Shown here one piece after another: positions 2,505 to 22,937 of a DNA stretch of 64,000 bases. Numbering within the stretch: position 1 is the stretch's first letter; every line of letters begins with the position of its first letter. Made by a program: the position numbers and the translations under genes. The notes below the pieces were generated by a model that had not been told where the DNA came from, ran no database searches, and saw nothing but the letters and a program-made list of their open reading frames with translations. Source of the stretch: Mesorhizobium sp. (lineage in GTDB: Bacteria; Pseudomonadota; Alphaproteobacteria; Rhizobiales; Rhizobiaceae); contig SAQL01000003.1 of assembly GCA_004020645.1 (NCBI GenBank), forward strand, positions 124,001-188,000, written 5' to 3'.

Positions 2505-2521
2505 ACTTATAACTTATAAGT
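2505..2521. promoter_or_regulatory. operator-like site 1, ACTTATAACTTATAAGT
   Basis: The divergent promoter region between the two aminotransferases contains the perfect 10-bp palindrome ACTTATAAGT (2512-2521) preceded by another ACTTATAA half. The same TATAAGT core recurs in four other promoter regions of the island, and two GntR/FCD regulators are encoded nearby. It is therefore a likely operator for one of them. Confidence 0.6.
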
Positions 2522-2577
2522 GACAGCTGCAAGAGCCGAAGCGCGGTTCAGCCGAAATTTGCTCGAAGGGATCAGTC

Positions 2578-3936
2578 ATGAATGTCAATGCCGCCATCGA
2601 AACGGACCCGCGAGAGGCAACACGCCGAACGCCAGACTCGAGCACTGCCAAGACGGAGGCTGCGGTTCAACGTCTACGGCAAAGGCTTGGCGGGGGAATT
2701 GGGAGCGGCGGTCGCTTCGAACATCGAGATCTGTTTATTCAAGCAGGCAAGGGAGCACACGTCACCGACCTGGATGGCAATTCGTACATCGATTACATGC
2801 TGGCCTTCGGACCGCTCATTCTTGGACATGCGCCCGATAGTCTCATGCGGGCAATCAATAGCTCGCTCGCCACGGGAACGATGTTTGGCGCCGCTTGCGA
2901 AGCGGAACTATTGCTATCGGAAGAGGTCGTTTCAGTCCTGCCTTGCGCGGAAAGAGTGCGCTTCACTAACTCTGGGAGCGAAGCCGTTCATGCCGCAATC
3001 CGGCTTGCACGAGCCGCCACGGGCCGCACCAAAGTTCTGAAGTTCGAGGGGCATTTTCACGGCTGGTTGGACAACATCTATCTGAGCGTCAAGCCTTTGG
3101 GGCCGCAGGGACTGAGCAATGCACCGTGGACGGCACGCATGGCGGCGGGCCAGCCGGCGAGCGTCGTCGAAGACGTTGTAGTAGCAACCTGGAATGATCC
3201 AAAGGGCTTTACAGATCTCATGAGTAGCTATGGGCACGACATTGCATGCATCATTCTCGAACCTTACCCGACCAATAATGGGTGCATGGAAGCTGCCGCG
3301 GGATTTCTCGAGCTTACGCGACAACTCGCCACGCAAAATGGCTCGATTCTCATCTTCGATGAAGTAGTCAGCGGTTTTCGCCTTGCACTTGGAGGCGCTC
3401 AACAGGTCTATGGAGTCATTCCGGACCTGTGTGTATTTGGCAAGGCCTTCGCCGGCGGCTTACCGATCGCAGGCTTCGCTGGAAATCTAGACTTGATGCG
3501 CTTGCTCGATGGCAATCAGGTTACCCATCTGGGGACCTATAATTCCAATGCGCTCTGTGCTGCAGGCGCATTGGCGATCCTGCGCGAACTCAAGGAGGGC
3601 AACGGAATGGTGCTGGACCGTATCCGTGACCTCGGTCTCTTGCTCAAAGATGGATTCAACCGGGTTTTCGCCGAATCAGGAGTAGCAATGTGCGCCGAGG
3701 GTCCAGGATCAGTCATCACGGTGTTCGCCGCCCCGACGCCGCCAACGACCTACCGGGAAACGTTGTCACATAACGCGCGGCTGCTGGCAAAATTGCACCG
3801 GGCATTGCTGACTCGTGGCATATGGGCATTTGCGAGGGGCAATTTCATGGTGTCTGCCGCGCATAACGAGGGCGACATTCTGGAGACCATTGCAGTCATG
3901 TCGAGCATTGTCGCAAGCGGAGAGATTCAGCGGTGA
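2578..3936 (+). CDS. glutamate-1-semialdehyde 2,1-aminomutase-like class III aminotransferase
   Basis: This 452-aa PLP enzyme belongs to the GSA-aminomutase branch of class III aminotransferases. It shows RFTNSGSEAVHAAIRLARA, the KFEGHFHGW loop typical of HemL-like proteins, the cofactor Asp in LIFDEVVSGFR, and the PLP-lysine motif VFGKAFAGGLPIAGFAG. An N-terminal extension of about 35 residues precedes the conserved core. Rhizobia use such HemL-like paralogues outside haem synthesis as amino-acid or amine transaminases, and its location in a catabolic cluster fits that role better than haem synthesis. It overlaps the downstream SDR by 4 bp (GTGA), so the two are translationally coupled. The transcript starts from the divergent region holding operator site 1. 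The substrate is unknown. Confidence 0.85.
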   Translation: MNVNAAIETDPREATRRTPDSSTAKTEAAVQRLRQRLGGGIGSGGRFEHRDLFIQAGKGAHVTDLDGNSYIDYMLAFGPLILGHAPDSLMRAINSSLATGTMFGAACEAELLLSEEVVSVLPCAERVRFTNSGSEAVHAAIRLARAATGRTKVLKFEGHFHGWLDNIYLSVKPLGPQGLSNAPWTARMAAGQPASVVEDVVVATWNDPKGFTDLMSSYGHDIACIILEPYPTNNGCMEAAAGFLELTRQLATQNGSILIFDEVVSGFRLALGGAQQVYGVIPDLCVFGKAFAGGLPIAGFAGNLDLMRLLDGNQVTHLGTYNSNALCAAGALAILRELKEGNGMVLDRIRDLGLLLKDGFNRVFAESGVAMCAEGPGSVITVFAAPTPPTTYRETLSHNARLLAKLHRALLTRGIWAFARGNFMVSAAHNEGDILETIAVMSSIVASGEIQR

Positions 3937-4685
3937 GCCTGCCTAGGAAGAAGACGTATTTGGTCACCGGCGGAACACACGGAATTGGCCGCGCTTGTGT
4001 GGAGGCGCTTGCGGCCCAGGGAGGTCGCGTCTTGTTTATAGGGCGCGATGAGGAGGCGGGATCACAACTTGCCGAAAGATTGCCTGGCTGCACGTTCGTT
4101 CGAGCCGACATTGCCGACGCTGAAGCATGCCGTGCCGCGGCAAATCAGGCGATCGACCTCGGTGAAGGGAGTCTGGACGGGCTAGTCAACAACGCCGGCA
4201 TGACTCTGCGCAAGGCGTTTGTCGAGACGAGCTTGCAACAATGGGATGAGGTCTTCGATGTGAACGTCCGCAGCGCGTTCCTCTTCACCCGGGCGGCTCT
4301 GCCTGCTCTGATCCGCGCCAAAGGCTCAGTCGTGGCGGTATCCTCGGTGGCAGGTCTTGTCGGGGCCGAAGGCCTGGTCGCCTACACCGCATCAAAGGCG
4401 GCGCTGATCGGCATGATGCGTTCGCTGGCGATCGAGTGCGGACGCGACGTCCGATTCAACACGGTCTGTCCGGGTCAGATTGGCACGCGAATGATGACCA
4501 AGGCGCTTTCCGACGAACAAAACGTCGCCCGCCTTCTCGAGGGCATTCCAGCCGGGCGCATCGGTGATCCGCGCGATGTTGCGCTGGCTGTAGTTTGGTT
4601 GCTTTCCGAGATGTCGGCCTACGTGAATGGGGCCGTGTTCCCGATCGATGGCGGTGAGACGTCTGGCTTTGCCTCTGCCGGTTAG
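3933..4685 (+). CDS. SDR-family NAD(P)-dependent oxidoreductase
   Basis: This 250-aa classical short-chain dehydrogenase/reductase has the cofactor motif TGGTHGIGRA near residues 12-21, the NNAG motif, the catalytic Ser in AVSSVAG and the YTASKAA (YxxxK) active site. The C-terminal substrate loop ends in the usual FPIDGG. Length and motif order are normal, so it should be active. It starts with GTG overlapping the stop of the aminotransferase. A transaminase coupled to an SDR suggests that the oxo product of transamination, or a hydroxyl on the substrate, is reduced or oxidised next. The substrate cannot be inferred. Confidence 0.85.
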   Translation: MSLPRKKTYLVTGGTHGIGRACVEALAAQGGRVLFIGRDEEAGSQLAERLPGCTFVRADIADAEACRAAANQAIDLGEGSLDGLVNNAGMTLRKAFVETSLQQWDEVFDVNVRSAFLFTRAALPALIRAKGSVVAVSSVAGLVGAEGLVAYTASKAALIGMMRSLAIECGRDVRFNTVCPGQIGTRMMTKALSDEQNVARLLEGIPAGRIGDPRDVALAVVWLLSEMSAYVNGAVFPIDGGETSGFASAG

Positions 4686-4696
4686 TGATTGCGTGC

Positions 4697-4715
4697 CCCG
4701 ACTAAGACAGTCGGG
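4697..4715. terminator. hairpin between convergent genes
   Basis: A perfect 7-bp stem, CCCGACT / AGTCGGG, with a 5-nt loop lies in the 38-bp gap between the convergent SDR (ending 4685) and LivF (ending 4724) genes. Neither side has a U-tract, so it may act as a weak or factor-assisted bidirectional terminator. Confidence 0.45.
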
Positions 4716-4723
4716 ACAGATCA

Positions 4724-5437
4724 TCACGCCGCGTCGGAAACTTCCAGCCAGCGTCGCTGAACGTCGCGATTGTCCTGAAGTTCCGCGGGAGGCCCGGAAA
4801 AGACGATGCGTCCGTAACCCATCACATCGACCCGGTCGCTGATGCTGAGCGCAATTGTCATTTTCTGCTCGACAAGCAAGATCGTAACTCCCCGATTGCG
4901 TATCTCGCGGATCACCTCAACCAGTCTTTCGACGATCAGCGGGGCAAGACCTTCGGTAGGTTCGTCGATCAGCAAGATTGCCGGATTGCCCAGCAGAGAA
5001 CGGCAAAGCGTCAGCATTTGTTGTTCCCCGCCCGACAGCGTCCCCGCAAGCGAAAGGCGGCGGCGCTCCAGGCCCGGGAAAAACTCGAACATCTCGCCCA
5101 CCGTCCATGCGCGCGTACCAGTCCTTGGCTTGCGCACACCAAGCAGAAGATTCTCCTCGACGGTCAAATTGTGAAAGACGTCCCGCTCTTCTGGGACATA
5201 GCCTATGCCGTTGCGGATGATTTCGAAGGTGCGTTTACCACGAAGCTCCGTACCGGACACACGAACCGAACCCTCGCTGGTCTGAACCAACCCGACGATC
5301 GCTTTCAGTGTTGTCGAGCGGCCGACACCGTTGCGTCCGACCAGGCTGACGATCTCGCCAGCGGGAATGGTAAGGTCGACGCCGTGAAGAATACGGCTCT
5401 GACCGTACTGGGCATGAAGGTTAGAAACCTCAAGCAT
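4724..5437 (-). CDS. livF: branched-chain-amino-acid-type ABC transporter ATPase (LivF), Arg in Walker A
   Basis: This 237-aa protein is the second ATPase of a HAAT-family importer. The start ATG at 5437 opens MLEVSNLHAQYG, the normal LivF N-terminus, and overlaps the end of livG by 8 bp. The signature LSGGEQQMLTLCRSLL, Walker B AILLIDEPTEGL and H-loop LLVEQK are present. The Walker A reads GRNGVGRSTT (codons GGC CGC TCG), so the invariant Lys is Arg. This could weaken ATP binding or be tolerated in the subfamily, with LivG (normal GPNGAGKST) carrying the load. The gene is third in the livM-livG-livF operon. The transported ligand may be an amino acid, amide or hydantoin-like compound; sequence does not decide. 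Confidence 0.88.
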   Translation of the reverse strand: MLEVSNLHAQYGQSRILHGVDLTIPAGEIVSLVGRNGVGRSTTLKAIVGLVQTSEGSVRVSGTELRGKRTFEIIRNGIGYVPEERDVFHNLTVEENLLLGVRKPRTGTRAWTVGEMFEFFPGLERRRLSLAGTLSGGEQQMLTLCRSLLGNPAILLIDEPTEGLAPLIVERLVEVIREIRNRGVTILLVEQKMTIALSISDRVDVMGYGRIVFSGPPAELQDNRDVQRRWLEVSDAA

Positions 5438-6185
5438 GACTTTCCGTTGTCCCCAAATAAGCGGTTCGGACGGCTTCGTCCTCGCGGATGGTTTCGGGTG
5501 CGCCCGAAGCGATAACCGTTCCGTAGACCAGAACGGAAATTCTGTCGCACAACTGGAACACCACGGACATGTCATGTTCGACTACCAGCAGTGTCTTCCC
5601 GTCTGTCATGCGATGGATCAATTCGACCATATGTTCCGACTCCCTGCGTGACATGCCGGAGGTCGGTTCGTCGAGCAGGATCACGTCTGGGTCCGTGGCC
5701 AGAGTCAGGGCGATCTCCAGTGCCCGCTGCTCCGAATAGGCCAGTTCGCCCGCCGGCACGTGCCGTTTATCGGACAGGCGAACGTCGTCTAGGATGGCAG
5801 ACGCACGATCGGAGATCGCGCTGTAGGCGCTGAGGGGTCTGCGCACCGAAAATTTGACACCGTGGCGTGACATGACCGCGATGCGCATGTTTTCGAGAGA
5901 TGACAGTCTCGGGAAAATGCTGGTGATCTGAAAGGAACGGCCGAGGCCAAGCCGATTGATCTGTTCGGGCGGCATCCTGTCGATGCGGCGTCCACCCAGT
6001 CTGATCTCGCCCGAGGTCGGCGCGAAACGCCCGGAAATCAGATTAAAGAGCGTGGATTTGCCTGCGCCGTTTGGCCCGATCAGGGCGTGGCGTTCGCCCG
6101 GCAACACTTTAAGGTCGGCACCCCGGATGATCTCGATGGGGCCAAACCGTTTGAAGACCTGAGTGAGGCAAAGCACAGGTTCCAT
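5430..6185 (-). CDS. livG: branched-chain-amino-acid-type ABC transporter ATPase (LivG)
   Basis: This 251-aa cytoplasmic ATPase is the first of the pair that powers the Liv-type importer. It has a canonical Walker A (GPNGAGKSTLFN) near residue 37, Walker B VILLDEPTSGM, and H-loop LLVVEHDM. The C-loop reads LAYSEQR instead of the usual LSYGEQR, a mild change. Its ATG overlaps the livM stop by one base (TAATG), giving tight coupling. The order livM-livG-livF is typical, while the periplasmic binding protein and LivH are on the opposite strand. Confidence 0.9.
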   Translation of the reverse strand: MEPVLCLTQVFKRFGPIEIIRGADLKVLPGERHALIGPNGAGKSTLFNLISGRFAPTSGEIRLGGRRIDRMPPEQINRLGLGRSFQITSIFPRLSSLENMRIAVMSRHGVKFSVRRPLSAYSAISDRASAILDDVRLSDKRHVPAGELAYSEQRALEIALTLATDPDVILLDEPTSGMSRRESEHMVELIHRMTDGKTLLVVEHDMSVVFQLCDRISVLVYGTVIASGAPETIREDEAVRTAYLGTTESHA

Positions 6186-7485: not shown

Positions 7486-7507
7486 TTGACATATCGTATA
7501 AGTTATG
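7486..7507. promoter_or_regulatory. operator-like site 2 (GACATATCGTATAAGTTATG)
   Basis: In the divergent livM/binding-protein promoter region, this stretch has two facing ATA-rich halves and ends in TATAAGTTATG. Site 3 (10577-10592) shares the same ends. It is part of the TATAAGTY family found at operon starts across the island, and is a likely operator for the GntR/FCD regulator encoded at 9837 or 22084. Confidence 0.6.
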
Positions 7508-7566
7508 TTTCATAATTCGGCATCTTTTGCAAGGGCGCGTCGCCCGTCTCGTGGAGGAACGTGGAA

Positions 7567-9801: not shown

Positions 9802-9836
9802 ATTCGACCAACGAAACTCCACGCGAGGCGAAGTGC

Positions 9837-10535
9837 ATGATGGAGCAAAACGATCTACCCTTGCTCGCGGCCTACAGCGCTCGGTTTGAACGGCTTGCGC
9901 CAAGCAAAACCATGGCCGAGACGGCGTATGACCGTGTGTCTGAACTGTTGATGGACGGGGCTTATCAGCCAGGCGACCGACTGGTCACGCGCGCCGTCGC
10001 GAACGAACTGGACATCGGCCTGACGCCCGTTCGGGAAGCGCTGCTGCGGCTCGCTGGAGAAGGAACGCTAGACCAGGTCAATTCGCGCGCCATGACCGTG
10101 CCTATCCTGTCCGCTGCAAGACTTGTCGAGATCTACAAATTGCGTCTTGCTTTGGAGCCCATGATCGCCGCGGAGGCGATCGACAAAATTTCGGTGGCAG
10201 CATTCAGCAACCTGGAGGCGTCCATGGTTGCCATGGCCGACGCCTACAAGCGCCAAGACTACCGCGCAGCGTTCAAGCAGAACCGCCGCTTCCATTTCGC
10301 CATTTACCAGGCAGCCGAGATGCCGTTTGTCCTCAATGTAATCCGTTCAGCGTGGCGAATGGTCGGGCCCATGTTCAGACAGGCCGATCCGGGGGCCGCC
10401 GATCCGAAGGAAGCGCTGGAAATCCACAGCGGTGTCATGGACGCGCTGAAGCGGCGCAACGCGGCGCAGCTGCGAAGCTGGCTTTGCCAGGATCTAAAGC
10501 GCGGAAGGCGGCTGCTGCGCAGTCTTATCGACTAA
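9837..10535 (+). CDS. GntR-family (FCD domain) transcriptional regulator
   Basis: This 232-aa regulator has an N-terminal winged HTH (ERLAPSKTMAETAYDRVSELLMDG onward; LTPVREALLRLAGEG is the recognition-helix region, residues about 60-75). An FCD ligand-binding domain follows, with the helical, metal-coordinating pattern seen as NRRFHFAIY and LEIHSGVM. FCD regulators normally bind an organic acid that releases DNA. The ATG doublet at 9837/9840 has GAGG about 9 bp upstream. As the last gene of the livKH operon, it probably controls the island through the TATAAGTY sites, one of which lies 40 bp beyond its stop, before hyuA. A second FCD regulator at 22084 is a paralogue. Confidence 0.88.
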   Translation: MMEQNDLPLLAAYSARFERLAPSKTMAETAYDRVSELLMDGAYQPGDRLVTRAVANELDIGLTPVREALLRLAGEGTLDQVNSRAMTVPILSAARLVEIYKLRLALEPMIAAEAIDKISVAAFSNLEASMVAMADAYKRQDYRAAFKQNRRFHFAIYQAAEMPFVLNVIRSAWRMVGPMFRQADPGAADPKEALEIHSGVMDALKRRNAAQLRSWLCQDLKRGRRLLRSLID

Positions 10536-10576
10536 TCAGTGGCGCCCAAGCCATTCTTTTTTAGACCGACTTGATA

Positions 10577-10592
10577 TGACATATAAGTTATG
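10577..10592. promoter_or_regulatory. operator-like site 3 upstream of the hydantoinase operon
   Basis: TGACATATAAGTTATG lies just upstream of hyuA and shares its ends with site 2. A further TATAAG follows at about 10596-10601. If transcription starts nearby, bound repressor would block the seven-gene operon. Confidence 0.55.
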
Positions 10593-10604
10593 CAATATAA
10601 GATC

Positions 10605-12707
10605 ATGAACAATCGAACTGACAGGGCGGGATGGCGTATAGCAATCGATGTTGGCGGGACGTTCACGGACGTCGTGCTGGTGACTTCGGACGGCGCAGTC
10701 CACGCTAGCAAATCTCCGTCCCATCCCACCGATCCCGCAGAAGGAATTATGAACGCGCTGCAGGCCATGGCAGCCGGTCAGCACCTGTCGCTGGGCGAAC
10801 TGCTGGGCAGATGCGATTCGGTGATTCATGGATCGACGGTGGCAACCAACACCGTTCTTGAAGGCAAGGGGGCGTCTGTCGGGCTGCTATGCACGCGCGG
10901 CTTCAGGGATACTCTCACGATCCGGCGCGGGATTCGCGTCAATCCTTGGGAGCATCGAGCGCCCCACCCCGAGCCAATGGTGCCGCGGTATCGGCGCCGG
11001 CCCGTTGCTGGACGCATCGACGCGGGCGGTCTTGAGATCGAGCCCCTGGGCATGCGCGATGTCGAGGCAGGCCTTACTTTCCTGCTTGAGACGGGAATTG
11101 AAGCACTCGCCATCAGCTTTCTTCATGCATACGCCAACAACGCCCACGAGGTCGCGGCCCGAGCAATGGTCTCGGCGCTGGCGCCCGACCTTCCCGTATT
11201 TATCTCCTCCGAGATTGCGCCCCTCATCGGTGAGTATGTGCGGACCTCCTCGACCGTGACCGCAGCCTATGTGTCGAAGCGGGTGGTTCCCTATCTCACG
11301 TCCTTGAGCAGATCGCTTGCCGGCGCGGGTTTGCATGGCAGACTGCACGTCATGCAGAGCAATGGTGGCCTGATCACCCTGGACGAAGTGGCACGCAACC
11401 CCGCCTTGCTGCTTTTGTCGGGGCCGGCGGGAGGCGTTGGTGCGCTTCGCTGGATCGCCGAAGCGACGGAGCGAAAGCGGCTGATCACAATGGAGATGGG
11501 TGGCACATCATGCGACCTCATTCTCTTCCACGATGGCCATGTCGACCGGACTGATGCGCTCGAAGTTGCGGGCTATCACATCAGTATCCCGTCCGTTGAC
11601 ATACACACCGTCAGCGCTGGCGGAGGATCCATAGCCCGCGTCGACCAAGGCGGCGTCCTGACGCTCGGTCCTGATGGCGCGGGAAGCACGCCTGGACCAG
11701 CTGCTTACGGGCGAGGCGGTAGGCTCGCAACGGACACCGATGCGCAGCTTGTGCTTGGGCGGCTCGCCCCGGGACCGTTTGCCGGAGGCGCGATCCACCT
11801 TGACGGCGGCCGCGCGTACGCCGTGGTTCACGACACGGTTGCCGCGGCTCTGAAGATTGATGCGAGCAAATCCGCCGACGGGATCGTAAGGCTCCAACAG
11901 CAGAACCTCGTTCACGCGGTGGAGCGCGTCAGCATCGAGCGTGGATTTGATCCGCGTGATTTTACGCTCGTGGCCGTTGGCGGTGCGGCGGCGCTGCATG
12001 CGGGATCGGTGGCACGCGCGCTCGGCTGCTCGGAAGTGATCATCCCCCGATTGGCAGGGGTCTTCTGTGCTTTCGGCATGCTTCATGCACCGATCCGGCG
12101 CGACCATGTTCGCACGCTGTCCCTGCAACTCGAAGCAGCCACGATGCCGCAGTTGCTGCGCGCTATGGACGATCTTCAGGACGATGTCCGCGAGGCCCTG
12201 CGCCGCCAGGACTTGGACGTCAGCAAAGCGACCTTCGAGAAGGCGATTGACCTTAACTATGCCGGTCAGCAATCCGCGATCACCGTTGCCTTCGAAGGAT
12301 CCGCAATGGAAATCCGAGAACGGTTCCTGTCGTTGCACAACGCACTTTATGGTCACGTACAGAAAGGATCGAACCCGCAGCTTAGCGCCATTCGTGTGGC
12401 AGGGCTGCTTGCTCCACCGCCGGTGCCGGTCAGGATCCGGCGGGCAACGGCCGCGCTTGCGCCTGCGCCGCGCCTCAGGCGCGATGTCTGGATCGGCGAC
12501 CGTACGCAGCTGGGCGTTCCGGTTTTCGATGGAGCGACGCTTCAGCCGGGCCACGTGATCGAGGGCCCATGTGTAATCGAGGAAGCAACAACAACGATCC
12601 TTCTCGAAAAGGGAGACCGGGCCACAATCGATCTCCACGACAACTACATCGTCAGCACGATTGCGGCCGCCGCTTCATCAGATCGTGCAGTGGAGGCCAT
12701 TGCATGA
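10605..12707 (+). CDS. hyuA: hydantoinase/oxoprolinase family protein, subunit A (ATP-binding)
   Basis: This 700-aa protein is the A subunit of an N-methylhydantoinase/5-oxoprolinase-type ATP-dependent ring-opening enzyme. The N-terminal IAIDVGGTFTDVVL is the phosphate-binding signature of the Hydant_A_N domain. GSTVATNTVLEGKG and MEMGGTSCDLILF are the second and third family blocks, and GAAALHAGSVARALG closes the ATPase fold. It starts at ATG 10605 (MNNRTD); an in-frame ATG at 10590 would sit inside the operator. It overlaps hyuB by 4 bp. The pair could also be read as an acetone-carboxylase-like AB pair, but there is no gamma subunit and HyuB is too short for AcxB. Probable substrates are hydantoins, lactams or cyclic imides. 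Confidence 0.85.
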   Translation: MNNRTDRAGWRIAIDVGGTFTDVVLVTSDGAVHASKSPSHPTDPAEGIMNALQAMAAGQHLSLGELLGRCDSVIHGSTVATNTVLEGKGASVGLLCTRGFRDTLTIRRGIRVNPWEHRAPHPEPMVPRYRRRPVAGRIDAGGLEIEPLGMRDVEAGLTFLLETGIEALAISFLHAYANNAHEVAARAMVSALAPDLPVFISSEIAPLIGEYVRTSSTVTAAYVSKRVVPYLTSLSRSLAGAGLHGRLHVMQSNGGLITLDEVARNPALLLLSGPAGGVGALRWIAEATERKRLITMEMGGTSCDLILFHDGHVDRTDALEVAGYHISIPSVDIHTVSAGGGSIARVDQGGVLTLGPDGAGSTPGPAAYGRGGRLATDTDAQLVLGRLAPGPFAGGAIHLDGGRAYAVVHDTVAAALKIDASKSADGIVRLQQQNLVHAVERVSIERGFDPRDFTLVAVGGAAALHAGSVARALGCSEVIIPRLAGVFCAFGMLHAPIRRDHVRTLSLQLEAATMPQLLRAMDDLQDDVREALRRQDLDVSKATFEKAIDLNYAGQQSAITVAFEGSAMEIRERFLSLHNALYGHVQKGSNPQLSAIRVAGLLAPPPVPVRIRRATAALAPAPRLRRDVWIGDRTQLGVPVFDGATLQPGHVIEGPCVIEEATTTILLEKGDRATIDLHDNYIVSTIAAAASSDRAVEAIA

Positions 12708-14479
12708 CCACCCGGCGCACTGATCCCATCAGCTTGGCTCTCGGCCAGAAGCAGATTGATCACATCACAAAAACTATGGGGACCGTGATGGTTCGCACAG
12801 CGCGCAGCCCCATTTTCAGCCAGAGCCACGATTTCTCGTGTTTCATCGGCGACGCTGAAGGGAATGTTGTCGGCCAAGCGGACGGCATTCCGATTCACAC
12901 CGGAGCAGGCGGTTTTGCGCTCCGGAAGGTTCTCGAGAGCTATGGGGACGACATCCACGACGGGGACGTCTTCATCCTCAGCGATCCCTACGTTGCCGGT
13001 GGCAATCACTTGCCGGACTGGACGGTCATTCAGCCCGTGTTCCTGAATGGGGCCAGGGTGGCGATGGTAGCCAATCGTGCGCACCAGTCCGACATCGGCG
13101 GCGGCGCAGGGGGCACCTACAACGCTGCAGCGACCGAGATCTATCATGAAGGCATTCGCATTCCGGTCCTCAAGATCGTCATCGAGGGAACGCTGCGTGA
13201 GGACATCGTCCGTCTGCTATGCCTGAACAGCCGCACGCCTGATCTCATCGAGGGTGATCTCGCCGCTATGCTGGGATCGACCGAGGTGGGCGCCCGGCGT
13301 ATCCGGGCCTTTGCAGCGGCCCTCGGGTCTTCCGACTTTCGACAGCTTTTGGATGACATGCTGGACTGGGGTGAAGAAATCATTGCGGCGGCAATCGCTT
13401 CCCTCCCGTGTGGGAGGTGGACGGGCGCCGATTTCATGGGGACCGATTGCTTCGAACCCACAGATGCCCGCATCGTTGTTGAGATCACTAATGACGGTTC
13501 GCATCTGATCTGTGACTTTTCGCGCACGGATGTGCAGGTCAAGGGCTTCAAGAACAGCTCACTGCCCAACACCTGCTCCGCCGTCTACCTGGCGGTCGTC
13601 GCGACGTTGGGAGCGCACATCCCGCGAAACGAGGGAGCTTATCGACGCATCAAGGTAATTGCGCCGGAAGGCACGATCGTCAATCCGCGCCACCCCGCGC
13701 CCCTCACAATGTGCACGACCTATCCCGCCCATCAGATCATTCACGCGGTGTGGCAGGCGCTGGGACAGGCGGCCCCCGATCTTGCTTGCGCAGGCTGGGG
13801 CCGGTCCTCCCACTGCAACACCTCCGGCTGGCGCGACAGCGGGGGCTATTACGTCGCTTATCAATGGCTTGGCATGGCCGGCGCCGGCGCCGCTAAGGAG
13901 CGCGACGGCTTTGAAAGCATGGGCCACATCGCCACGCTGGGTGGTCTCACGCTTCCTGATGTCGAGGGATTCGAGGCGGAATATCCATTCCGCGTCCTGC
14001 TCAACGAGCTGCGCCTCGATGGCGGCGGCGCCGGCAGATTCAGGGGCGGAACCGGAGCCCGTGTCGAGGTCGACGTCCTTGGCCCCGCGGAATATTCTTA
14101 TCGCGGTGAGGGGACGGGAGTGCCCACCGGCTTCGGAACGTGCGGGGGTTTGTCTGGCGATGCAGGCCATTGCGTAATCGCCTTCCCCGACGGGCAGACC
14201 TATCTCCCGCCCCAATATGGCGTGGAAAAGCTTGGGCCTCTCCGGCTAGTGATCTCGTCCTCGGGCGGCGGCGGCTATGGCGATCCCAATGAGCGGGACC
14301 CTGTCCTTGTCAGGGCCGATGTCAGGGATGGGCTCGTTTCCGAGGCGAGCGCCGCAAGCCAATATGGTGTCGTCCTCGGTCCCGGCCCGCATTACGCGAT
14401 TGATGAAGCGGCAACACGCGCATTGCGGTTCGCAGAAGCAGGGTCAGTGGCGGCCGCGACGGATGCATGGAGCAGATGA
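12704..14479 (+). CDS. hyuB: hydantoinase/oxoprolinase family protein, subunit B
   Basis: This 591-aa protein has the Hydant_B signature: SHDFSCFIGDAEGNVV, IPIHTGAGGFAL, DGDVFILSDPYVAGGNHLPD and, near the end, SSSGGGGYGDP. It starts at ATG 12704, overlapping the hyuA stop (ATGA). In-frame sequence upstream lacks family features. HyuA and HyuB assemble into the active hydrolase, with HyuA using ATP. The amidohydrolase start codon follows immediately after the hyuB stop, so the products of ring opening are probably passed to the downstream enzymes. Confidence 0.85.
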   Translation: MTTRRTDPISLALGQKQIDHITKTMGTVMVRTARSPIFSQSHDFSCFIGDAEGNVVGQADGIPIHTGAGGFALRKVLESYGDDIHDGDVFILSDPYVAGGNHLPDWTVIQPVFLNGARVAMVANRAHQSDIGGGAGGTYNAAATEIYHEGIRIPVLKIVIEGTLREDIVRLLCLNSRTPDLIEGDLAAMLGSTEVGARRIRAFAAALGSSDFRQLLDDMLDWGEEIIAAAIASLPCGRWTGADFMGTDCFEPTDARIVVEITNDGSHLICDFSRTDVQVKGFKNSSLPNTCSAVYLAVVATLGAHIPRNEGAYRRIKVIAPEGTIVNPRHPAPLTMCTTYPAHQIIHAVWQALGQAAPDLACAGWGRSSHCNTSGWRDSGGYYVAYQWLGMAGAGAAKERDGFESMGHIATLGGLTLPDVEGFEAEYPFRVLLNELRLDGGGAGRFRGGTGARVEVDVLGPAEYSYRGEGTGVPTGFGTCGGLSGDAGHCVIAFPDGQTYLPPQYGVEKLGPLRLVISSSGGGGYGDPNERDPVLVRADVRDGLVSEASAASQYGVVLGPGPHYAIDEAATRALRFAEAGSVAAATDAWSR

Positions 14480-15571
14480 ATGGCACTGATCGACGACCGG
14501 CAGAATGAGCCGGCAGCCCAACGCATCGACTGCGATATTCACCCGTCGGTGCCGAACTGCGCCGCGCTGTTCCCCCATCTCGACGACCATTGGCGTGAAA
14601 TGAGCATCGTGCGCGGGATAGACGATCTGCATTCCGCAAATTACCCCGACAACACGCCGCTGACGGTGCGCCCCGATTGGAAACCCGCACATGGCCGCGC
14701 CGCAACATCCGCCGAGGCCATAGCCGGTCAATGCCTCGATCCGAGCGGCAGCACGCTGGCTATCTGCAATTGTCTGTTCGGAATCCAAACGCTCTACAGC
14801 GAAGACCTTGCAGGAGCCTATGCGAAGGCGCTGAACGACTGGGTTCGCACCGAGTTCCTGGACAAGGACGCCCGCTTGCGCGCGTCCATTATCGTGTCCC
14901 TCGACAGCGTTGAAATGGCTGTCGAGGAAATTCATCGCTGCGCTGCGGACCGCCGCTTTGTTCAGGTCCTGCTGCTGGTCGCGACCGCGCAGCCACTCGG
15001 CAAGCGGCATTTTTGGCCAATCTACGAAGCGGCCGTTCGCTATGATCTGCCGATCGGCATTCACGCCGGGAGCGAATTTCGCAATCCCCCCACGCCGATG
15101 GGTTGGCCGAGCTATTACCTGGAAGACTATGTCGTAAACGCCCAGTCATTTCAGTCGCAATTGACGAGCCTGTTTTGCGAAGGCGTCTTCAACAAGTTCC
15201 CCACACTCATGGTGGTTATGCTCGAGTCTGGCTGGACCTGGTTGCCCGCGCATCTGTGGCGCATGACAAAATACTGGCATGGGCTGCGGATGGAAATTCC
15301 CTGGGCCGATCGGTCGCCCGCGGAAGTGGTGAAAGACCAGATACGCTTCTCGCTCCAGCCCATCGATGGCCCGGGCGACGTCGACCAGATGCGGCGTTTG
15401 ATGGATCATATCGGGACGGATGATCTCCTGGTCTATTCCTCCGACTATCCGCACAACCAATTCGCCGGCGCCGACGTGTTCCACGAGACGTTTACGCGCG
15501 ATGAGATACGCAAACTCACCCGCGATACGCCCCTCGCAACCTATCCGAGATTGAGGAGTGCCTCATCATGA
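14480..15571 (+). CDS. amidohydrolase family (TIM-barrel, amidohydrolase_2) protein 1
   Basis: This 363-aa protein resembles the ACMSD/amidohydrolase_2 group of metal-dependent TIM-barrel hydrolases and decarboxylases. It opens with IDCDIHPSVPN, where D-x-H marks the first metal-binding strand. The usual second His of HxH is replaced (HPS), as in the neighbouring paralogue. Later blocks are PIGIHAGSEF (metal-binding His), VVMLESGWTWLPAHLWRM and the catalytic Asp region YSSDYPHNQF. Its ATG touches the hyuB stop and its end overlaps the next gene by 4 bp. It probably hydrolyses or decarboxylates the ring-opened product. Two paralogues in tandem could act on successive intermediates or form a heteromer. 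Confidence 0.8.
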   Translation: MALIDDRQNEPAAQRIDCDIHPSVPNCAALFPHLDDHWREMSIVRGIDDLHSANYPDNTPLTVRPDWKPAHGRAATSAEAIAGQCLDPSGSTLAICNCLFGIQTLYSEDLAGAYAKALNDWVRTEFLDKDARLRASIIVSLDSVEMAVEEIHRCAADRRFVQVLLLVATAQPLGKRHFWPIYEAAVRYDLPIGIHAGSEFRNPPTPMGWPSYYLEDYVVNAQSFQSQLTSLFCEGVFNKFPTLMVVMLESGWTWLPAHLWRMTKYWHGLRMEIPWADRSPAEVVKDQIRFSLQPIDGPGDVDQMRRLMDHIGTDDLLVYSSDYPHNQFAGADVFHETFTRDEIRKLTRDTPLATYPRLRSASS

Positions 15572-16677
15572 CAGTCGTGTTGACATCAGCCGCGCGCCAA
15601 GAGGCGCAACCCGTCATCAGCGGCGTCGCCGATTGTGACATTCACCCGTCGGTCAAGAGCATGGCTGATCTGCACCCGTGGCTTTCCTCGAAATGGATCG
15701 AGCACTTCAAATCCTACGGGTCGCTGCGCAATCAGCACTATGTTACCGGCGCGGCGTATCACAAGAGCCAGCCCAATGCGTCGCGGCGAGACGCCTATCC
15801 GCCGGAAGGCGGTCCGCAAGCGTCGAGCCTCGCTTTCATGAAACAACAGCTTCTCGATAGCCACGGTATCGCCTTGGGCATCCTCAATCCGCTTGTGCCC
15901 TCGCAAGGCGTACGGAACCTGGATCACAGCGCCGCACTCTGCCGGGCCATCAATCATTGGCAGGTCGAGTGTTGGACCAGCAAAGAAGCCAGGCTGAGGG
16001 CGTCCATCGTGGTGCCCTACGAGGACCCAGAAGCCTCGGCGGCCGAGATCCGCTTTTGGGCGGGCAACGCGTCTTTTGTCCAGGTCCTCATGCTCAGCAG
16101 GACGTCGTTTCCAACGGGCAACAAGCGTTACTGGCCCATTTACGATGCGGCGGCGGAGGCAGGGCTTCCTGTCGGTATTCACGCGTTCGGCAACAGCGGC
16201 CTGCCGATAACGAGCGCGGGCTGGCCAAGTTATTACATGGAAGACATGGTCGCCCACGCACAGTCCAGCCAGGCGGGCCTGGTCAGCCTCGTTATCGAGG
16301 GTGTGTTCGAACGGTGGCCGGCTCTCAAGTTCGTCTTGATCGAATCGGGCTTCAGTTGGGCGCCGTCGTTGATCTGGCGCCTGGATCGAAACTGGCGCAC
16401 ATTGCGTAGTGAGGTTCCGCATCTGAAGATGTCGCCCGGGGAATACATCAGGCGCAATGTCTGGTGGACGAGCCAGCCGATCGACGAACCGGAAAACGCC
16501 ACCCACGTGTCGGACATATTCGACTGGCTGGGCTGGGACCGCATCATGTTTTCGACCGATTACCCCCACTGGGACTTCGACGACCCGGCGCGGGTGCTGG
16601 CTTTCCGCACTAGTGCCGAGAAGCGCCAGCAGTTCTTTCGCGGCAATGCCCACCACGTCTACGGGGTCGCCGCGTGA
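15568..16677 (+). CDS. amidohydrolase family (TIM-barrel, amidohydrolase_2) protein 2
   Basis: This 369-aa protein is a clear paralogue of the preceding gene: ADCDIHPSV near the start, PVGIHAFGNSG, VLIESGFSWAPSLIWRLDR and FSTDYPHWDFDDP, in the same order. All metal-site blocks are present, with the same HPS in place of HxH. The C-terminus ends in NAHHVYGV, the usual family ending (N-x-x-x-x-Y). Start ATG 15568 overlaps the upstream stop (ATGA), and its own stop overlaps the Rieske start. Tandem retention and divergence point to non-identical roles. The substrate is unknown. Confidence 0.8.
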   Translation: MTVVLTSAARQEAQPVISGVADCDIHPSVKSMADLHPWLSSKWIEHFKSYGSLRNQHYVTGAAYHKSQPNASRRDAYPPEGGPQASSLAFMKQQLLDSHGIALGILNPLVPSQGVRNLDHSAALCRAINHWQVECWTSKEARLRASIVVPYEDPEASAAEIRFWAGNASFVQVLMLSRTSFPTGNKRYWPIYDAAAEAGLPVGIHAFGNSGLPITSAGWPSYYMEDMVAHAQSSQAGLVSLVIEGVFERWPALKFVLIESGFSWAPSLIWRLDRNWRTLRSEVPHLKMSPGEYIRRNVWWTSQPIDEPENATHVSDIFDWLGWDRIMFSTDYPHWDFDDPARVLAFRTSAEKRQQFFRGNAHHVYGVAA

Positions 16678-17087
16678 AAAAGCATGTGGTCGCATCGACT
16701 GCGGAGATTCCGCCCGGCGCGCGAAAACTCGTGACGGTGGCCGGCCGTCCGATCGTCATCTTCAATCTCGACGGCAACTTCTTCGGCCTTTTCAATCGCT
16801 GTCCACACAATGGCGGCAGCCTGGCTGACGGCATCGTCACAGGTCTCGTCAGGTCCACGGAGCCCGGGACCTATACGTATTGCCGAAGGGGAGAGGTGGT
16901 TCGCTGCCCGTGGCATGGCTGGGAGTTCGACATACGAACGGGTCAATCCTTCTGCCGGCCCGGCGACTTGAAGGCTCGGCAGTTCAACATCGAGGTAGCA
17001 GACGGACGCGATATAGTCGAAGGCCCCTATGTGGCGGAGACCGTGAGCGTCAGGACCGAAGACAATTATATCGTCGTCGAGGTTTGA
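16674..17087 (+). CDS. small Rieske [2Fe-2S] protein
   Basis: This 137-aa soluble protein consists of one Rieske domain. Ligands are visible as RCPHNGG (C43, H45) and RCPWHGWEF (C78, H81), with 32 residues between pairs. There is no mononuclear-iron domain, so it is not an oxygenase alpha subunit. It starts with GTG overlapping the previous stop. It is 20-30 residues longer than typical ferredoxins because of the insert between the ligand pairs. It may be an electron carrier or a redox subunit of an oxygenase encoded elsewhere. The adjacent second Rieske protein and reductase support electron transfer. Confidence 0.85.
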   Translation: MKKHVVASTAEIPPGARKLVTVAGRPIVIFNLDGNFFGLFNRCPHNGGSLADGIVTGLVRSTEPGTYTYCRRGEVVRCPWHGWEFDIRTGQSFCRPGDLKARQFNIEVADGRDIVEGPYVAETVSVRTEDNYIVVEV

Positions 17088-17094
17088 TCGCCTG

Positions 17095-17448
17095 ATGGAA
17101 GACGAAGCGGGCCTTAGCCATGCGTCAGAGCGGGACTGGATCACAGTTGCCGACGCCGATGCAATTGGCGAACAGGAAGTGATGTGCGTAACGTTAGGGG
17201 ACCTGAACCTGGCGCTCTACCGTGTCTGCGCGGACGAGTGGTACTGCACCGACAATTTGTGCACGCACGGCAACGCGATGTTGCATGAAGGTTGGCTCGA
17301 AGATTGCTCGATCGAATGTCCGCTTCACGGCGGCCGTTTCGACGTCCGAACCGGCGAGCCGTTGTCTGAGCCGGCGCAGGAGCCGCTCTCGACTTATCCA
17401 GTTCGTGTGATCCTGGGGCAGGTGCAAGTCTGGGTCGCTCGATCGTGA
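17095..17448 (+). CDS. Rieske-type ferredoxin of a ring-hydroxylating oxygenase system
   Basis: This 117-aa protein has the size and pattern of NDO/BphA3-type Rieske ferredoxins. Ligands are LCTHGNAML (C56, H58) and ECPLHGGRF (C75, H78), and TGEPLSEPAQEPLSTYPV is the usual post-cluster segment. It starts 8 bp after the first Rieske gene and is followed 17 bp later by its likely reductase. It would carry electrons from the FAD reductase to a terminal oxygenase. No terminal oxygenase gene is present in the window. Confidence 0.88.
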   Translation: MEDEAGLSHASERDWITVADADAIGEQEVMCVTLGDLNLALYRVCADEWYCTDNLCTHGNAMLHEGWLEDCSIECPLHGGRFDVRTGEPLSEPAQEPLSTYPVRVILGQVQVWVARS

Positions 17449-17464
17449 GCGGGAGGAGGCCGTG

Positions 17465-18664
17465 ATGTCGAGACCTCACCACGTAATTGTCGGCGCGGGG
17501 CAGAGTGGAGCCAACGCCGCCTTTGCTATGCGCCGGGCAGGCTTCGAAGGCGCGATCACGATCGTCGGCGCCGAGAACCATTTTCCGTACGAAAGACCGC
17601 CGCTGTCGAAGGACGTCCTCACCGGGCAGGACAGCCAACCGCCGCTCTTTTTCTCAGAAGCCAGATACGATGAAAAGAACATTGCCATCAAGCTTGGCCA
17701 GCGGGTGACTGCGATCGATGCGGCATCGGCACGCCTCAAGACGGAGGAGGGAGCATCAATTCCCTACGACCGGCTGCTCATTGCAACTGGCGGTCGGCCG
17801 CGGCCACTTGATTTTCCCGGCAGCGAGAGCGTGGTTCAGTTGCGCGACGTCGACGACGCGGCGCGATTGCGGGCCAGCCTGAAAAAGGGACTGCGCGTCG
17901 CATGTGTAGGAGCCGGACCGATCGGGCTCGAGGTTGCAACCGCCGCGCGCGCCCTGGGGTGCGACGTCACGGTTCTGGAGAAATCCGCTTCGATCATGGG
18001 CCGCTGCCTGCCGGCTGAAGCGGCGGGCTGGCTTCGCCGCCGTCATGATGCGCAGGGCATCAAGATCATCACCGGCTTTTCCCTCGTCGCCTTCGAGGCT
18101 GGACAGGTGGTCGAGGCTTCCGGCGACAGGATCGCCGCCGATCTGGTCGTTGCAGGCACGGGCATGGTGCCGAACATCGAACTCGGGGCATCCGCAGGGG
18201 CGAAGCTCGACCGCGGCATCATGGTCGATACATTCGGCGAGACATCGTCGCCTGGAATCTATGCGGCGGGTGACGTCGCGACCTTCTGGCATCCGCTCCA
18301 TGCTTCCCACCTCAGCTGGGAGACATGGCGCCACGCGATGAACCACGGCATTGCCGTGGGTAAGTCGATGGCGGGTCGGCGCGAGCCTTATGTCGAATTT
18401 CCCTATTTCTGGACAGACCAGGCCGGGGTGAGGGTTCAAGTCGTCGGCGCCGCCGCGGGAAGCTCAAGCGTGCGCCGAGGCAGCGAGAGCGAAGACAGGT
18501 TCTCCATCTGGTATCTCGACGAGGAAAACGTGGTCAAGGGCGTTGTCGCCGTCGATGCCCCGCGCGAGATCAAGATTGCCGAGCGGCTCATCCAGAGTGG
18601 TAGGCCGATTGATCCGATGCGCATCGCCGACCTGGCTTTCGAGCTTCGCGATCTCCTGCGCTAG
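17465..18664 (+). CDS. FAD/NAD(P)-dependent ferredoxin reductase
   Basis: This 399-aa flavoprotein is of the class I ferredoxin-reductase family (like BphA4/PdR). The FAD-binding motif VIVGAGQSGANAAFAM is at the N-terminus, FPYERPPLSKD follows as in all ring-hydroxylating reductases, VACVGAGPIGLEVA binds NAD(P)H, and GIYAAGDVA is the second FAD motif. It starts at ATG 17465 behind GGGAGGAGG; the GTG at 17462 is an alternative. It should reduce the ferredoxin encoded just upstream. It is the last gene of the operon and converges with the PotC-like permease. Confidence 0.9.
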   Translation: MSRPHHVIVGAGQSGANAAFAMRRAGFEGAITIVGAENHFPYERPPLSKDVLTGQDSQPPLFFSEARYDEKNIAIKLGQRVTAIDAASARLKTEEGASIPYDRLLIATGGRPRPLDFPGSESVVQLRDVDDAARLRASLKKGLRVACVGAGPIGLEVATAARALGCDVTVLEKSASIMGRCLPAEAAGWLRRRHDAQGIKIITGFSLVAFEAGQVVEASGDRIAADLVVAGTGMVPNIELGASAGAKLDRGIMVDTFGETSSPGIYAAGDVATFWHPLHASHLSWETWRHAMNHGIAVGKSMAGRREPYVEFPYFWTDQAGVRVQVVGAAAGSSSVRRGSESEDRFSIWYLDEENVVKGVVAVDAPREIKIAERLIQSGRPIDPMRIADLAFELRDLLR

Positions 18665-18688
18665 AGACTAGAGTTCGATCCCCACTGC

Positions 18689-19486: not shown

Positions 19487-19497
19487 GATATCTCCTG

Positions 19498-20733: not shown

Positions 20734-20828
20734 CTCGCAATCTTCGCTTTCATTCGTGGTTGAACGGATCGTCACAACCTGCCTGGCAACGAGGCTCTGT
20801 GCGGGTGGCTCAGCGTTGTGGATGCTTT

Positions 20829-20871
20829 TTGCAACCCCATGGCGCGCCGAAAGCGCGCCATGGGGTTGCAA
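20829..20871 (-). other. intercistronic 19-bp hairpin behind the binding-protein gene
   Basis: A perfect 19-bp stem (20829-20847 with 20853-20871) and a CGAAA loop lies 4 bp after the stop codon of the binding-protein gene and ahead of the PotB gene. There is no U-tract on the minus strand, so it is unlikely to be a full terminator. Such hairpins between binding protein and permeases commonly stabilise the upstream mRNA and set the excess of binding protein. Confidence 0.75.
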
Positions 20872-20875
20872 TCAA

Positions 20876-21925
20876 TTACTTTGCCTGCCAGGCCTTGAAA
20901 CGCTCCTCAAGTTCTTCGCCATAGTCCGCCCAAAACTCAGAGCTCAACGCGGTTGCCGATTTCAGGTTCTCCGGCGCCGTCGGCATATCGGCCAACAGGC
21001 TCGGGTCGACCAACTCGATGCCCTTCTTATTGAGGATGCCGTAGGTTATGTACTTGGGAAATTCCTTTTGAATTTCGGGTGTGCTCGCGAACTTGATGAA
21101 TTGCTCCGCCAGTTCCAGACGAGGCGACCCCTTCACGATCCCCCAATAGTCCTGCCCATAGATTTGCCCATCCCAGTGTATGGCTAGATCCTTGCCCTTC
21201 TGATTGGCCGCGGTAACCCGGCCGTTGAAGGTCGTCGTTATCGCGACATCTCCGGCCACCAGTCTTTCGATAGACTCAGCGCCGCTGCCCCAGAAAACCG
21301 TCTCGGCCTTGATCTCGTCAAGCTTAGCGAAGGCGCGATCGACACCCTCTGGCGTGGCGAGCACCTGATAGACCTCGGAAGCGGGAACACCATCGGCGAA
21401 CAAAGCAGTTTCAAGGGTTAAACGCGCTGTGGCACGCACCCCTCGTTTGCCGGGAAACTTCTTCAGGTCGAAGAAGTCCGCCCAACTCTTTGGACCTTCC
21501 GCCATCTTGGTCTTGTCGTAGGAGGTGACGAACCCCCATGCGAATGCGCCGGCGCCGCAGTCACTCGTCGCACCGGGCAGGAAGTCGTCTCGGTTTGCGA
21601 TCTTGGACCAGTCGAGCTTTTCAAACAGTCCTTCCTCGCACCCGCGCAACATCTCGGTGCTGTCGATCTGCATGACGTCCCAAGTCACCTGGTTGGCCAT
21701 TACCATGGCACGCACCTTCGCCATTTCTCCCGTGTAGGTATCCTCCACGACCTTGACCTTGAACTGTTCGGCGAAGGGTTCAAAAAACGCCTTCCTCTCG
21801 GCGTCTTGGAGCGCCCCTCCCGCGCCGACGATAGTCAATTCTTGACTGGCGGCAGGGAGGCTTAAGGCCAGCGCGATAACGCAGGCCAGCGCTCCAGCGC
21901 CTGTGTTGTAGCAATTCCTCAACAT
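20876..21925 (-). CDS. ABC transporter substrate-binding protein, spermidine/putrescine (PotD) type
   Basis: This 349-aa periplasmic protein of the SBP_bac_8/PotD family has a signal peptide (LACVIALALSLPAASQ) and mature start ELTIVGAGGALQDAERKAF. It has the usual two-lobe pattern (VRAMVMANQVTWDVMQIDS, KFASTPEIQKEFPKYITYG). Start ATG 21925 has GGGGA 6-7 bp upstream. It is the first gene of the potD-potB-potC-like operon and its promoter carries operator-like site 4. The family also binds compounds other than polyamines, for example opines and other small amines, so the ligand is open. Confidence 0.87.
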   Translation of the reverse strand: MLRNCYNTGAGALACVIALALSLPAASQELTIVGAGGALQDAERKAFFEPFAEQFKVKVVEDTYTGEMAKVRAMVMANQVTWDVMQIDSTEMLRGCEEGLFEKLDWSKIANRDDFLPGATSDCGAGAFAWGFVTSYDKTKMAEGPKSWADFFDLKKFPGKRGVRATARLTLETALFADGVPASEVYQVLATPEGVDRAFAKLDEIKAETVFWGSGAESIERLVAGDVAITTTFNGRVTAANQKGKDLAIHWDGQIYGQDYWGIVKGSPRLELAEQFIKFASTPEIQKEFPKYITYGILNKKGIELVDPSLLADMPTAPENLKSATALSSEFWADYGEELEERFKAWQAK

Positions 21926-21976
21926 TGACTTTCCCCAGTGTTTGATTTGAACCGCGTATGCCAAGCGACGATATGC

Positions 21977-21995
21977 AACTTATATCTTATATGTC
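21977..21995. promoter_or_regulatory. operator-like site 4 (AACTTATA-TCT-TATATGTC)
   Basis: This imperfect inverted repeat has 8-bp arms and a 3-bp centre upstream of the PotD-type gene. Read on the minus strand it is GACATATA-AGA-TATAAGTT, almost the same as site 5 at 22919-22937 with identical architecture. It is a likely repressor site controlling uptake. Confidence 0.65.
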
Positions 21996-22083
21996 AACAG
22001 CAGTGGCCAAATGCCAATCGGCGTTTTGGAGCGAACGTGTGCGATTTGTGTGAATGACCTGATGTTGCGTTCCGGCTGCGGCG

Positions 22084-22854
22084 TCAGTCGGATAGTGCAT
22101 CCAGGGCTGCTAGGTGGTCGAGAATACTGTCGCTTCCCAGCTCGATATCGCGCCGCATAGCCCGTTGAGCGGCTGCACCATCTCTGCGCTCCAACGCGTC
22201 GAGCAGGTTGACGTGCTCTTCACCCCCGAGATGCTTCAGGGTGATCTCACCATAATACACGACCAGGATCGGGCTCATGGACACCCACAGCATCTCGATA
22301 TGATTGTAGAGCATGTCGAGGCCCGCCGCCTCGCACACGCCCAAGTGAAATTCTCGATTGCTGCGGAACGCTTCCTGCACCCGGCGCTCGGCCTCCGCAC
22401 TAACGTAGGCGACATGAATCTTTCGCAACTGCGCAATCCTGGACTTAGTTATCTTCTCGGCTGCAAACTTGGCCGCCAGCCCTTCAAGGGACGTGCGCAA
22501 AACCTTCAACTGCTCGTAACGTCGAAGCGTGACATCGGGCACATGGATAAACCGTCTGGAACGGATCTCAAGCGCGAACTCGCTCACCAATCTGAGGCAC
22601 GCCTCGCGAATTGGGGTGACGCTGGTTCCCAGCATGTCGGCGACATCGCGCATGACGATGCGATCACCGGGCCGAAAGCTGCCATCGAGCAGAGCATTTC
22701 TTAGCGCCAGATAGCACCGTGCAGACAGGCTGCCTTGCTCGACGGGCGATACGCGTCGTCCTCGCTGTAAAAGGTTTGATTTGGTGTCCATGTGTTCGCC
22801 GCCCGACGCACCGTTTGAGGCTTTCATTGGCGATAATTCCCAATGGATTCTCAC
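22084..22854 (-). CDS. GntR-family (FCD domain) transcriptional regulator 2
   Basis: This regulator of up to 256 aa has a winged HTH (ARCYLALRNALLDGSFRPGD, then TSVTPIREACLRLVSE) and a C-terminal FCD domain with the metal/ligand pattern NREFHLGVCEAAG and a late EEHVNLLDAL. The GTG at 22854 has GGAG 8 bp upstream; ATGs at 22830 and 22791 are alternatives. It is divergent from the transketolase genes and the intergenic region has two operator-like sites, so it very likely represses itself and tktN. With the paralogue at 9837, it is a candidate reader of the TATAAGTY sites. Confidence 0.87.
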   Translation of the reverse strand: MRIHWELSPMKASNGASGGEHMDTKSNLLQRGRRVSPVEQGSLSARCYLALRNALLDGSFRPGDRIVMRDVADMLGTSVTPIREACLRLVSEFALEIRSRRFIHVPDVTLRRYEQLKVLRTSLEGLAAKFAAEKITKSRIAQLRKIHVAYVSAEAERRVQEAFRSNREFHLGVCEAAGLDMLYNHIEMLWVSMSPILVVYYGEITLKHLGGEEHVNLLDALERRDGAAAQRAMRRDIELGSDSILDHLAALDALSD

Positions 22855-22883
22855 TTCCTATTCTCCCGCGACGATAAACGTCA

Positions 22884-22937
22884 ACATGTAAGTTATCACT
22901 TGTCATTGTCCGAATCGCGACTTATAAGATATAAGTC
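22884..22937. promoter_or_regulatory. operator-like sites 5 and 6 between gntR2 and the transketolase genes
   Basis: Site 5 (22919-22937) is GACTTATA-AGA-TATAAGTC, a perfect inverted repeat with 8-bp arms and a 3-bp centre. It is the best example of the family. Site 6 (about 22884-22904, AACATGTAAGTTATCACTTG) is a weaker match with the TGTAAGTTAT half. The position between a GntR gene and its divergent neighbour is classic for an autoregulatory operator. Confidence 0.7.

Follow-up and report, generated by a model that had tools for sequence, protein, structure and literature searches.

The DNA analysed here is a 64,000-nucleotide stretch of a Mesorhizobium sp. genome (assembly GCA_004020645.1, contig SAQL01000003.1, contig positions 124001-188000; hereafter the window, with negative window numbers for positions upstream of it), in which a first-pass annotation had proposed that one AT-rich operator family with TATAAGTY half-sites links at least five operons of a catabolic island. 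Direct reading of the sequence located all five of its sites, either exactly or displaced by 1-2 bases. In what follows, mismatches are counted against the full palindrome ACWTATA-N3-TATAWGT, sites are given without strand, and scores are those of a 21-bp matrix trained on 42 sites from other genomes only and run on 104 kb (contig 84001-188000). Three of the sites are strong: 2505-2521 (ACTTATAACTTATAAGT; score 30.9, unequalled in 8 Mb of simulated sequence), which lies between divergent aminotransferase genes and forms a perfect 8-1-8 dyad, ACTTATAA-C-TTATAAGT; 21977-21995 (AACTTATATCTTATATGTC; no mismatch, score 31.2), before a PotD-type gene on the minus strand; and 22919-22937 (GACTTATAAGATATAAGTC; score 30.7), between gntR2 and a split transketolase pair, which is the perfect 8-3-8 inverted repeat that had been described. 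The proposed core RACWTATA-N3-TATAAGTY is exact at 21977-21995, on the minus strand, but the two remaining sites are degenerate. That between the divergent livM and livK genes (7487-7512; three mismatches, best matrix centre 7502 with a score of 13.3, E 0.05 per 104 kb) had been listed from 7486, where its two halves are not spaced by 3. That directly before hyuA (10570-10602) consists of two overlapping three-mismatch matches, the second 14 bp on, with scores of 16.6 at centre 10580 (unequalled in the simulated sequence) and 8.6 at centre 10594 (E 0.14 per 104 kb). Three sites are new: a weaker second operator in the gntR2/transketolase gap (22884-22900; three mismatches, score 20.3, likewise unequalled) and two just upstream of the window, one before another split transketolase pair (contig 120900-120916, window -3100) and one before a third GntR gene, GntR3 (contig 121545-121561, window -2455). 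On the sequence evidence set out below, these sites are most probably operators of a local regulon read by the paralogous regulators GntR2 and GntR3, which belong to one clade.

GntR2 (22084-22854, minus strand) matches PF00392 at 45.3 bits (cut-off 27) and PF07729 at 75.3 bits (cut-off 24.3) and is a member of the FCD (FadR) subfamily of the GntR superfamily. GntR1 (9813-10535, plus strand), beside livH and hyuA, has the same two domains and comes from another lineage. GntR3 (contig 121746-122417, window -2254 to -1583), a GntR/FCD-type gene assigned by identity, starts ∼2.3 kb upstream of the window, and its product shares 46% identity with GntR2 across 214 residues (45-46% in the genome search). 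Where the annotation had counted two GntR/FCD paralogues in the island there are therefore three, the third outside the window, and it is GntR2 and GntR3, not GntR1, that fall in the clade whose loci carry the operator. The GntR1 gene lies between the two weakest sites and encodes a GntR/FCD protein, which could suggest that GntR1 reads all of the sites, or at least those of liv and hyuA. We consider this very unlikely, because its recognition helix and wing differ from those of the operator-bearing clade (IGLTPVREAL / DQVNSRAM against GTSVTPIREAC / EIRSRRF) and it is only 30% identical to GntR2. Furthermore, a search of the family's other 393 genomes at E≤1e-45 returned no GntR1 relative, and strong sites in many genomes adjoin genes of the GntR2/3 type. 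Plasmid matches to GntR1 showed 33-38% identity among the 15 listed of 113. GntR2 and GntR3 are the likely readers of the sites.

Several counts address how far chance could explain the sites. With at most one mismatch TATAAGTY occurs 30 times in the window against 16.9 expected, a number reached in none of 100 shuffles. The pattern ACWTATAAGNTATAAGT, with up to three mismatches, gave 11 strand-matches in the 7.66-Mb genome, all within contig 120900-146936, whereas the reversed ACWTATAAGNTATAAGT pattern used as a control gave 39 matches across the genome. When the full palindrome was scanned over the whole genome, all four places with 0-1 mismatch lay in this 26-kb island, as did one of the six with two mismatches and four of the 51 with three (two of the four overlap). 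From the 47 three-mismatch places outside the island ∼0.16 would be expected in 26 kb, so the weak sites are also enriched, although two of them overlap. The motif is thus not equally common elsewhere in the genome, the strong sites being confined to the island, and the proposal of one operator family with a local regulon stands in this respect; the operator family itself is confirmed. The nine top matrix scores in the 104 kb are the island's sites, followed by a drop to background, and seven of the nine were unequalled in the 8 Mb of simulated third-order sequence. An unseeded ranking of 9-mers in 46 loci picked by protein homology alone placed the operator at the top, with ACTTATAAG in 31 loci (resampled mean 0.0) and AACTTATAA in 34 (resampled mean 0.2). 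Among the 10- and 12-mers of these loci a few non-operator words also rank high, and these are probably conserved coding sequence.

The association of operator and regulator was then followed through other genomes. Across 394 genomes of the family, the closest relatives of GntR2 outside its own genome were found in G160, G290, G379, G188 and G074 (44-50% identity), and all five carry a site within 10 kb that has no more than one mismatch. A profile of seven proteins (GntR2, GntR3 and these five) identified 47 loci in 84,980 species genomes, from Mesorhizobium, Rhizobium, Ensifer, Shinella, Azospirillum, Pseudomonas, Acidisoma, Acetobacteraceae, Rhodobacterales and others. The palindrome with up to two mismatches was present in 41 of the 47 loci, with 90 matches, 6, 43 and 41 of them carrying 0, 1 and 2 mismatches respectively. 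Spacing controls of 1, 2, 4 and 5 returned 6, 0, 1 and 8 matches in the same loci, all with two mismatches, and two controls with scrambled arms returned 4 and 2, one of them at one mismatch. For a second collection, in which ten of fourteen plasmid matches were examined, sites with at most one mismatch were found at all five loci whose regulators are 47-52% identical to GntR2, and at none of the five whose regulators are 37-45% identical. A tree of 62 proteins places GntR2 and GntR3 in a group of 55 rows (support 91/90, with long-branch warnings). The clade's 53 other members, from Rhizobiales, Azospirillum, Pseudomonas, Acetobacteraceae and others, have the palindrome with up to two mismatches in 46 of their loci and with at most one in 38; of the six outgroup rows (L145, L146, L147, G231, G298 and G315), one has a match with at most one mismatch and another has one with up to two. 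The recognition helix of the clade ends in REAC (REAA in L141) and its wing reads SGRF, SRRF or AGRF, while the outgroup helices end in REAI, REAL or RESL. The comparison with related genomes that the annotation had called for thus supports its choice of a GntR/FCD protein as regulator, since the loci of clade relatives carry the operator. As read from the genomes, the sites are conserved together with this regulator clade and its gene set across genera.

The collected sites also define the anatomy of the operator. The symmetrised consensus of 50 non-redundant sites, eight of them our own, is AACTTATAA-S-TTATAAGTT, in which TATA-N3-TATA is nearly invariant, and conserved bases reach positions 7-10 on either side of the operator centre. 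A mechanically called open reading frame starts 8-150 bp downstream of most sites. The -10 promoter hexamer has the consensus TATAAT, and since TATAAG resembles it and the sites precede genes, one might suppose that the motif represents AT-rich -10-like elements only, with no operator. This we judge to be highly improbable: the two-armed pattern is kept at spacing 3 and hardly at the four control spacings, the strong palindrome is found nowhere else in the genome, and conservation extends well to both sides of the centre. A different question is whether the site is a dyad at all. TTATAA is self-complementary, so that a dyad and a 7-bp repeat coincide, and a further TATAA-like box begins at +9, the next 7-bp step, in 14 of 92 flanks, other offsets having 0-3 such boxes; the site could accordingly be read as NanR-like tandem direct repeats of the form (TTATAAG)n. 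However, most flanks have no third repeat, and around 54 exact TATANNNTATA cores the outer C and outer G occur 34 and 36 times respectively, and both together 24 times. Enrichment of C and G on both sides fits the dyad prediction, and we regard the tandem-repeat reading as unlikely.

A number of observations weigh against a regulon of GntR2 and GntR3, or limit it. A search for a fixed -35 box 17 bp upstream of a TATAAG half-site found none that holds generally, and the only raised -35 offsets, -14 and -11, fall partly in the flank of the operator itself; because no common -35 box was seen, overlap of the operator with the promoter is only putative. The training sites of the matrix were gathered with a pattern derived from the window, and only the k-mer count was unseeded. 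The 47 loci are in part close relatives or neighbours on the same contig and so are not independent: six lie on contigs already in the family-genome set, and L089 shares a contig with L100, as L090 does with L102. Seven of the 53 clade loci (L091, L102, L112, L124, L129, L130 and L144) had no match with up to two mismatches in the stretch examined. Matches with at most one mismatch occur in 53 of the 394 family genomes (our own included), many of which are small, and by-eye comparison found a GntR relative listed within 10 kb only in our genome, in the five relatives named above and in G089, in which gntR is cut by a contig end. Around the sites of G305, G342, G216 and G233, the 14-16 kb examined (down to 3.9 kb on one side) contained no protein related to any of the three GntR proteins. 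Because most of the 53 genomes lack a listed GntR relative nearby, a single operator-like match is no proof of a regulon, and it is clustering, gene context and co-occurrence that carry the argument. Lastly, the liv/hyuAB/amidohydrolase/Rieske part of the island carries the weakest sites.

Comparison with known regulators places these proteins in familiar company. By sequence profile, the top-scoring solved relative is McbR (4p9f; E 1.5e-42), and the 6z74 group, which we take to be Atu1419, also matched (E 4.5e-13). Both are FCD repressors of the VanR group, from the same domain family as GntR2. Atu1419 of Agrobacterium fabrum represses catabolic promoters and its own, through short palindromes at the -10 or between the -10 and the -35, and is released by a metabolite (PMC7797058). 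The island sites likewise lie before the regulators' own genes and before catabolic genes, although metabolite-released repression is here only predicted. The operators differ, that of Atu1419 being the 10-mer ATGTATACAT and that of the island extending over 17-21 bp with a TATA-N3-TATA centre. The sites of McbR in E. coli K12 are said to include ATATAT (PMC13343897).

The usual operator of the FadR subfamily, according to Suvorova, Korostelev and Gelfand 2015, has TKGT/ACMA boxes with GT and AC 2-3 nt apart, and NanR and BioR are listed there as exceptions to this core (PMC4494728). No such TKGT/ACMA core is present in the consensus of our 50 sites. As exceptions to the usual core are known, this weakens only the claim of a canonical site and not domain membership, and on its sequence the island operator would be a further exception to the GT-N3-AC rule. 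BioR (TTATMKATAA) and NanR, which uses repeats (TGGTATAW), resemble the island operator in departing from that core but differ from it in sequence and spacing. Tandem repeats of the NanR type were not found, the repeat word being TTATAAG and a third box being present in only the 14 of 92 flanks; nor is the operator of the BioR type, in which TTAT and ATAA arms are 2 apart, its TATA arms being spaced by 3, and the palindrome at spacing 2 having no match in the 47 loci, TTATMKATAA itself not having been scanned for. In 23 orthologous groups, the same paper reports additional, weaker boxes at 7-12 nt from the centre of the site (PMC4494728); the TATAA-like box from +9 is similar to these extra half-sites, but differs in its 7-bp register and in being confined to a minority of flanks. 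The island operator was not found in print in searches of the open literature, which for its sequence words covered 30 of 1,473 papers.

The following scheme infers that the proteins bind the sites, that they repress and do not activate, that both paralogues use the same sites, and what kind of effector acts. Each half-site would be contacted by one subunit of a GntR2 or GntR3 dimer, sometimes with a further box in the 7-bp register. In the absence of effector, the dimer, bound at or near promoters, would repress the transaminase, split-transketolase, transporter, liv and hyuAB operons as well as gntR2 and gntR3 themselves. An amine- or amide-derived effector would bind the FCD domain, and the DNA would be released. 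The island is probably a single gene set under joint control, for the use of nitrogen-containing compounds.

The sequence assignments of the genes next to the sites suggest that an amine or amide is taken up and deaminated. Among the partner genes, the most conserved encodes a class III aminotransferase (1090-2481, minus strand; PF00202, with NF004767 above its cut-off) and is present in 34 of 48 loci, our own included in this and the following locus counts; to its left are a PotA-type ATPase and an amidase (PF01425), partly beyond the window. On the other side of the 2505-2521 operator are a second class III aminotransferase and an SDR dehydrogenase (2578-4685, plus strand; assigned by Pfam and NCBIfam), the SDR cluster recurring in 24 of the loci. 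The PotD-type solute-binding protein (20876-21964, minus strand; PF13416) is the first gene of an ABC transporter operon, and PotD and PotB types are each found in 18 loci and the PotA type in 16. The split transketolase-like pair (22957-24772, plus strand) has its N-terminal gene ending at 23799 and its C-terminal gene starting at 23792; each half gives a partial match to NF004559, below the whole-protein cut-off, and the N and C clusters occur in 27 and 26 loci. A succinate-semialdehyde-dehydrogenase-type enzyme (24948-26438, plus strand; TIGR01780 at 674.8 bits, cut-off 646.35) is, from its position, probably the last gene of the transketolase operon. The genes nearest to 79 sites, our own weak sites included, were aminotransferase in 34 cases, transketolase N in 31, gntR in 21 and PotD type in 4, with 14 unclassified; two sites had no gene within 350 bp. 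To the left the island extends from window -4984 to -103 (contig 119017-123897), with a second split transketolase pair and the third GntR gene, each with their own operators, and then the amidase and PotA-type gene running back to the window edge.

The proposed hyuA target operon (10605-18664, plus strand) contains hyuA, hyuB, two amidohydrolase_2 genes, two Rieske proteins and a ferredoxin-reductase-like gene, as assigned by Pfam, and these genes are presumably co-transcribed. It is an unusual gene run, with the two Rieske proteins in tandem. The nearest NCBIfam model to hyuA is that of the alpha subunit of caprolactamase, CapA, and a caprolactam-type pathway was weighed on this ground and not adopted, the match being 537 bits against a cut-off of 1000. 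Some loci that carry the operator (L089/L100, L125 and L126) have hydantoinase A/B genes close to the regulator, as does a Phaeobacter locus without a site, so the hyuAB of the window has parallels, at ∼30% identity where compared. Against twelve stretches of other genomes livM, livK, livH, both amidohydrolases, the first Rieske gene and the reductase were unmatched at E≤1e-15, and the liv ATPases, hyuA, hyuB and the second Rieske gene matched at only 28-39% identity. The suggestion that all the clusters degrade one compound class can thus be kept in part. For the conserved core (transaminases, split transketolase, PotABCD-like transporter, amidase and succinate-semialdehyde dehydrogenase), which travels with the operator across genera, it is plausible; for the liv/hyu/Rieske genes, with the weakest sites and poor matches elsewhere, it is less certain. 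A literature search for the substrate of the gene set yielded nothing usable.

Operator, regulator and catabolic genes form a cassette on large plasmids of Agrobacterium, Sinorhizobium meliloti Rm41 (pSymA), Shinella, Mesorhizobium huakuii and Pararhizobium (loci L136, L137, L140, L142 and L143), a location that fits spread of the cassette by plasmids. The site-bearing plasmids have the same gene set, with an amidase and histone-deacetylase-type proteins in Agrobacterium, Shinella and Pararhizobium and a succinate-semialdehyde dehydrogenase in Agrobacterium and M. huakuii. That the Rm41 locus might be the symbiosis-linked potABCD2 (SMa0799-803; PMC7268258) was considered and dropped, as the identity of the locus could not be shown and the 123 kb around it contained no NifH signature. 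Seven other genomes of the genus were searched, in which no GntR2 relative above 37% identity (E≤1e-30) was present and only one had a single operator-like match. Because these genomes lack a close GntR2 relative and nearly lack sites, the island (contig 119000-151000) looks accessory and was probably acquired.

A likely regulator-operator pair can therefore be named for a catabolic gene set that is widespread, being present on plasmids of Sinorhizobium, Agrobacterium, Shinella, Pararhizobium and Mesorhizobium and also in Pseudomonas and Azospirillum. With the operator as a search pattern the pathway's genes could be listed in any genome, and in a reporter it could reveal the compound that acts as inducer; the sister clades are at hand for studying joint change of operator and recognition helix. 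Related but different AT-rich repeats with a 7-bp period, ATATATCATATATGAT-like and TATAATATATTATAT-like, were observed in the sister GntR clades of G315, G231, L146 and L147. This suggests, from sequence comparison, a wider operator group with clade-specific letters, and in this small, post hoc sample there is a hint that the TATA frame is kept where its flanking bases vary. More speculatively, and with rather more doubt than confidence, we propose that the McbR-like FCD group has a common 7-bp-periodic frame, W-TATA-W-S-W-TATA-W, in which clades swap the flanking A/T together with the recognition helix, TTATAA-S-TTATAA going with REAC and ATATAT-S-ATATAT with REAI, and that the REAC clade controls an undescribed catabolic route of transaminases and split transketolase, combined with deamidating enzymes that differ between bacteria (amidase, HyuAB or histone-deacetylase-type deacetylase). 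The sister-type repeats were located at 5236-5260 and 11910-11930 in L088, 6715 and 7144 in L087, 9939 in L146, 9156 in L078, and 7923 and 15974 in L147, and one such repeat also occurs in the G188 stretch.

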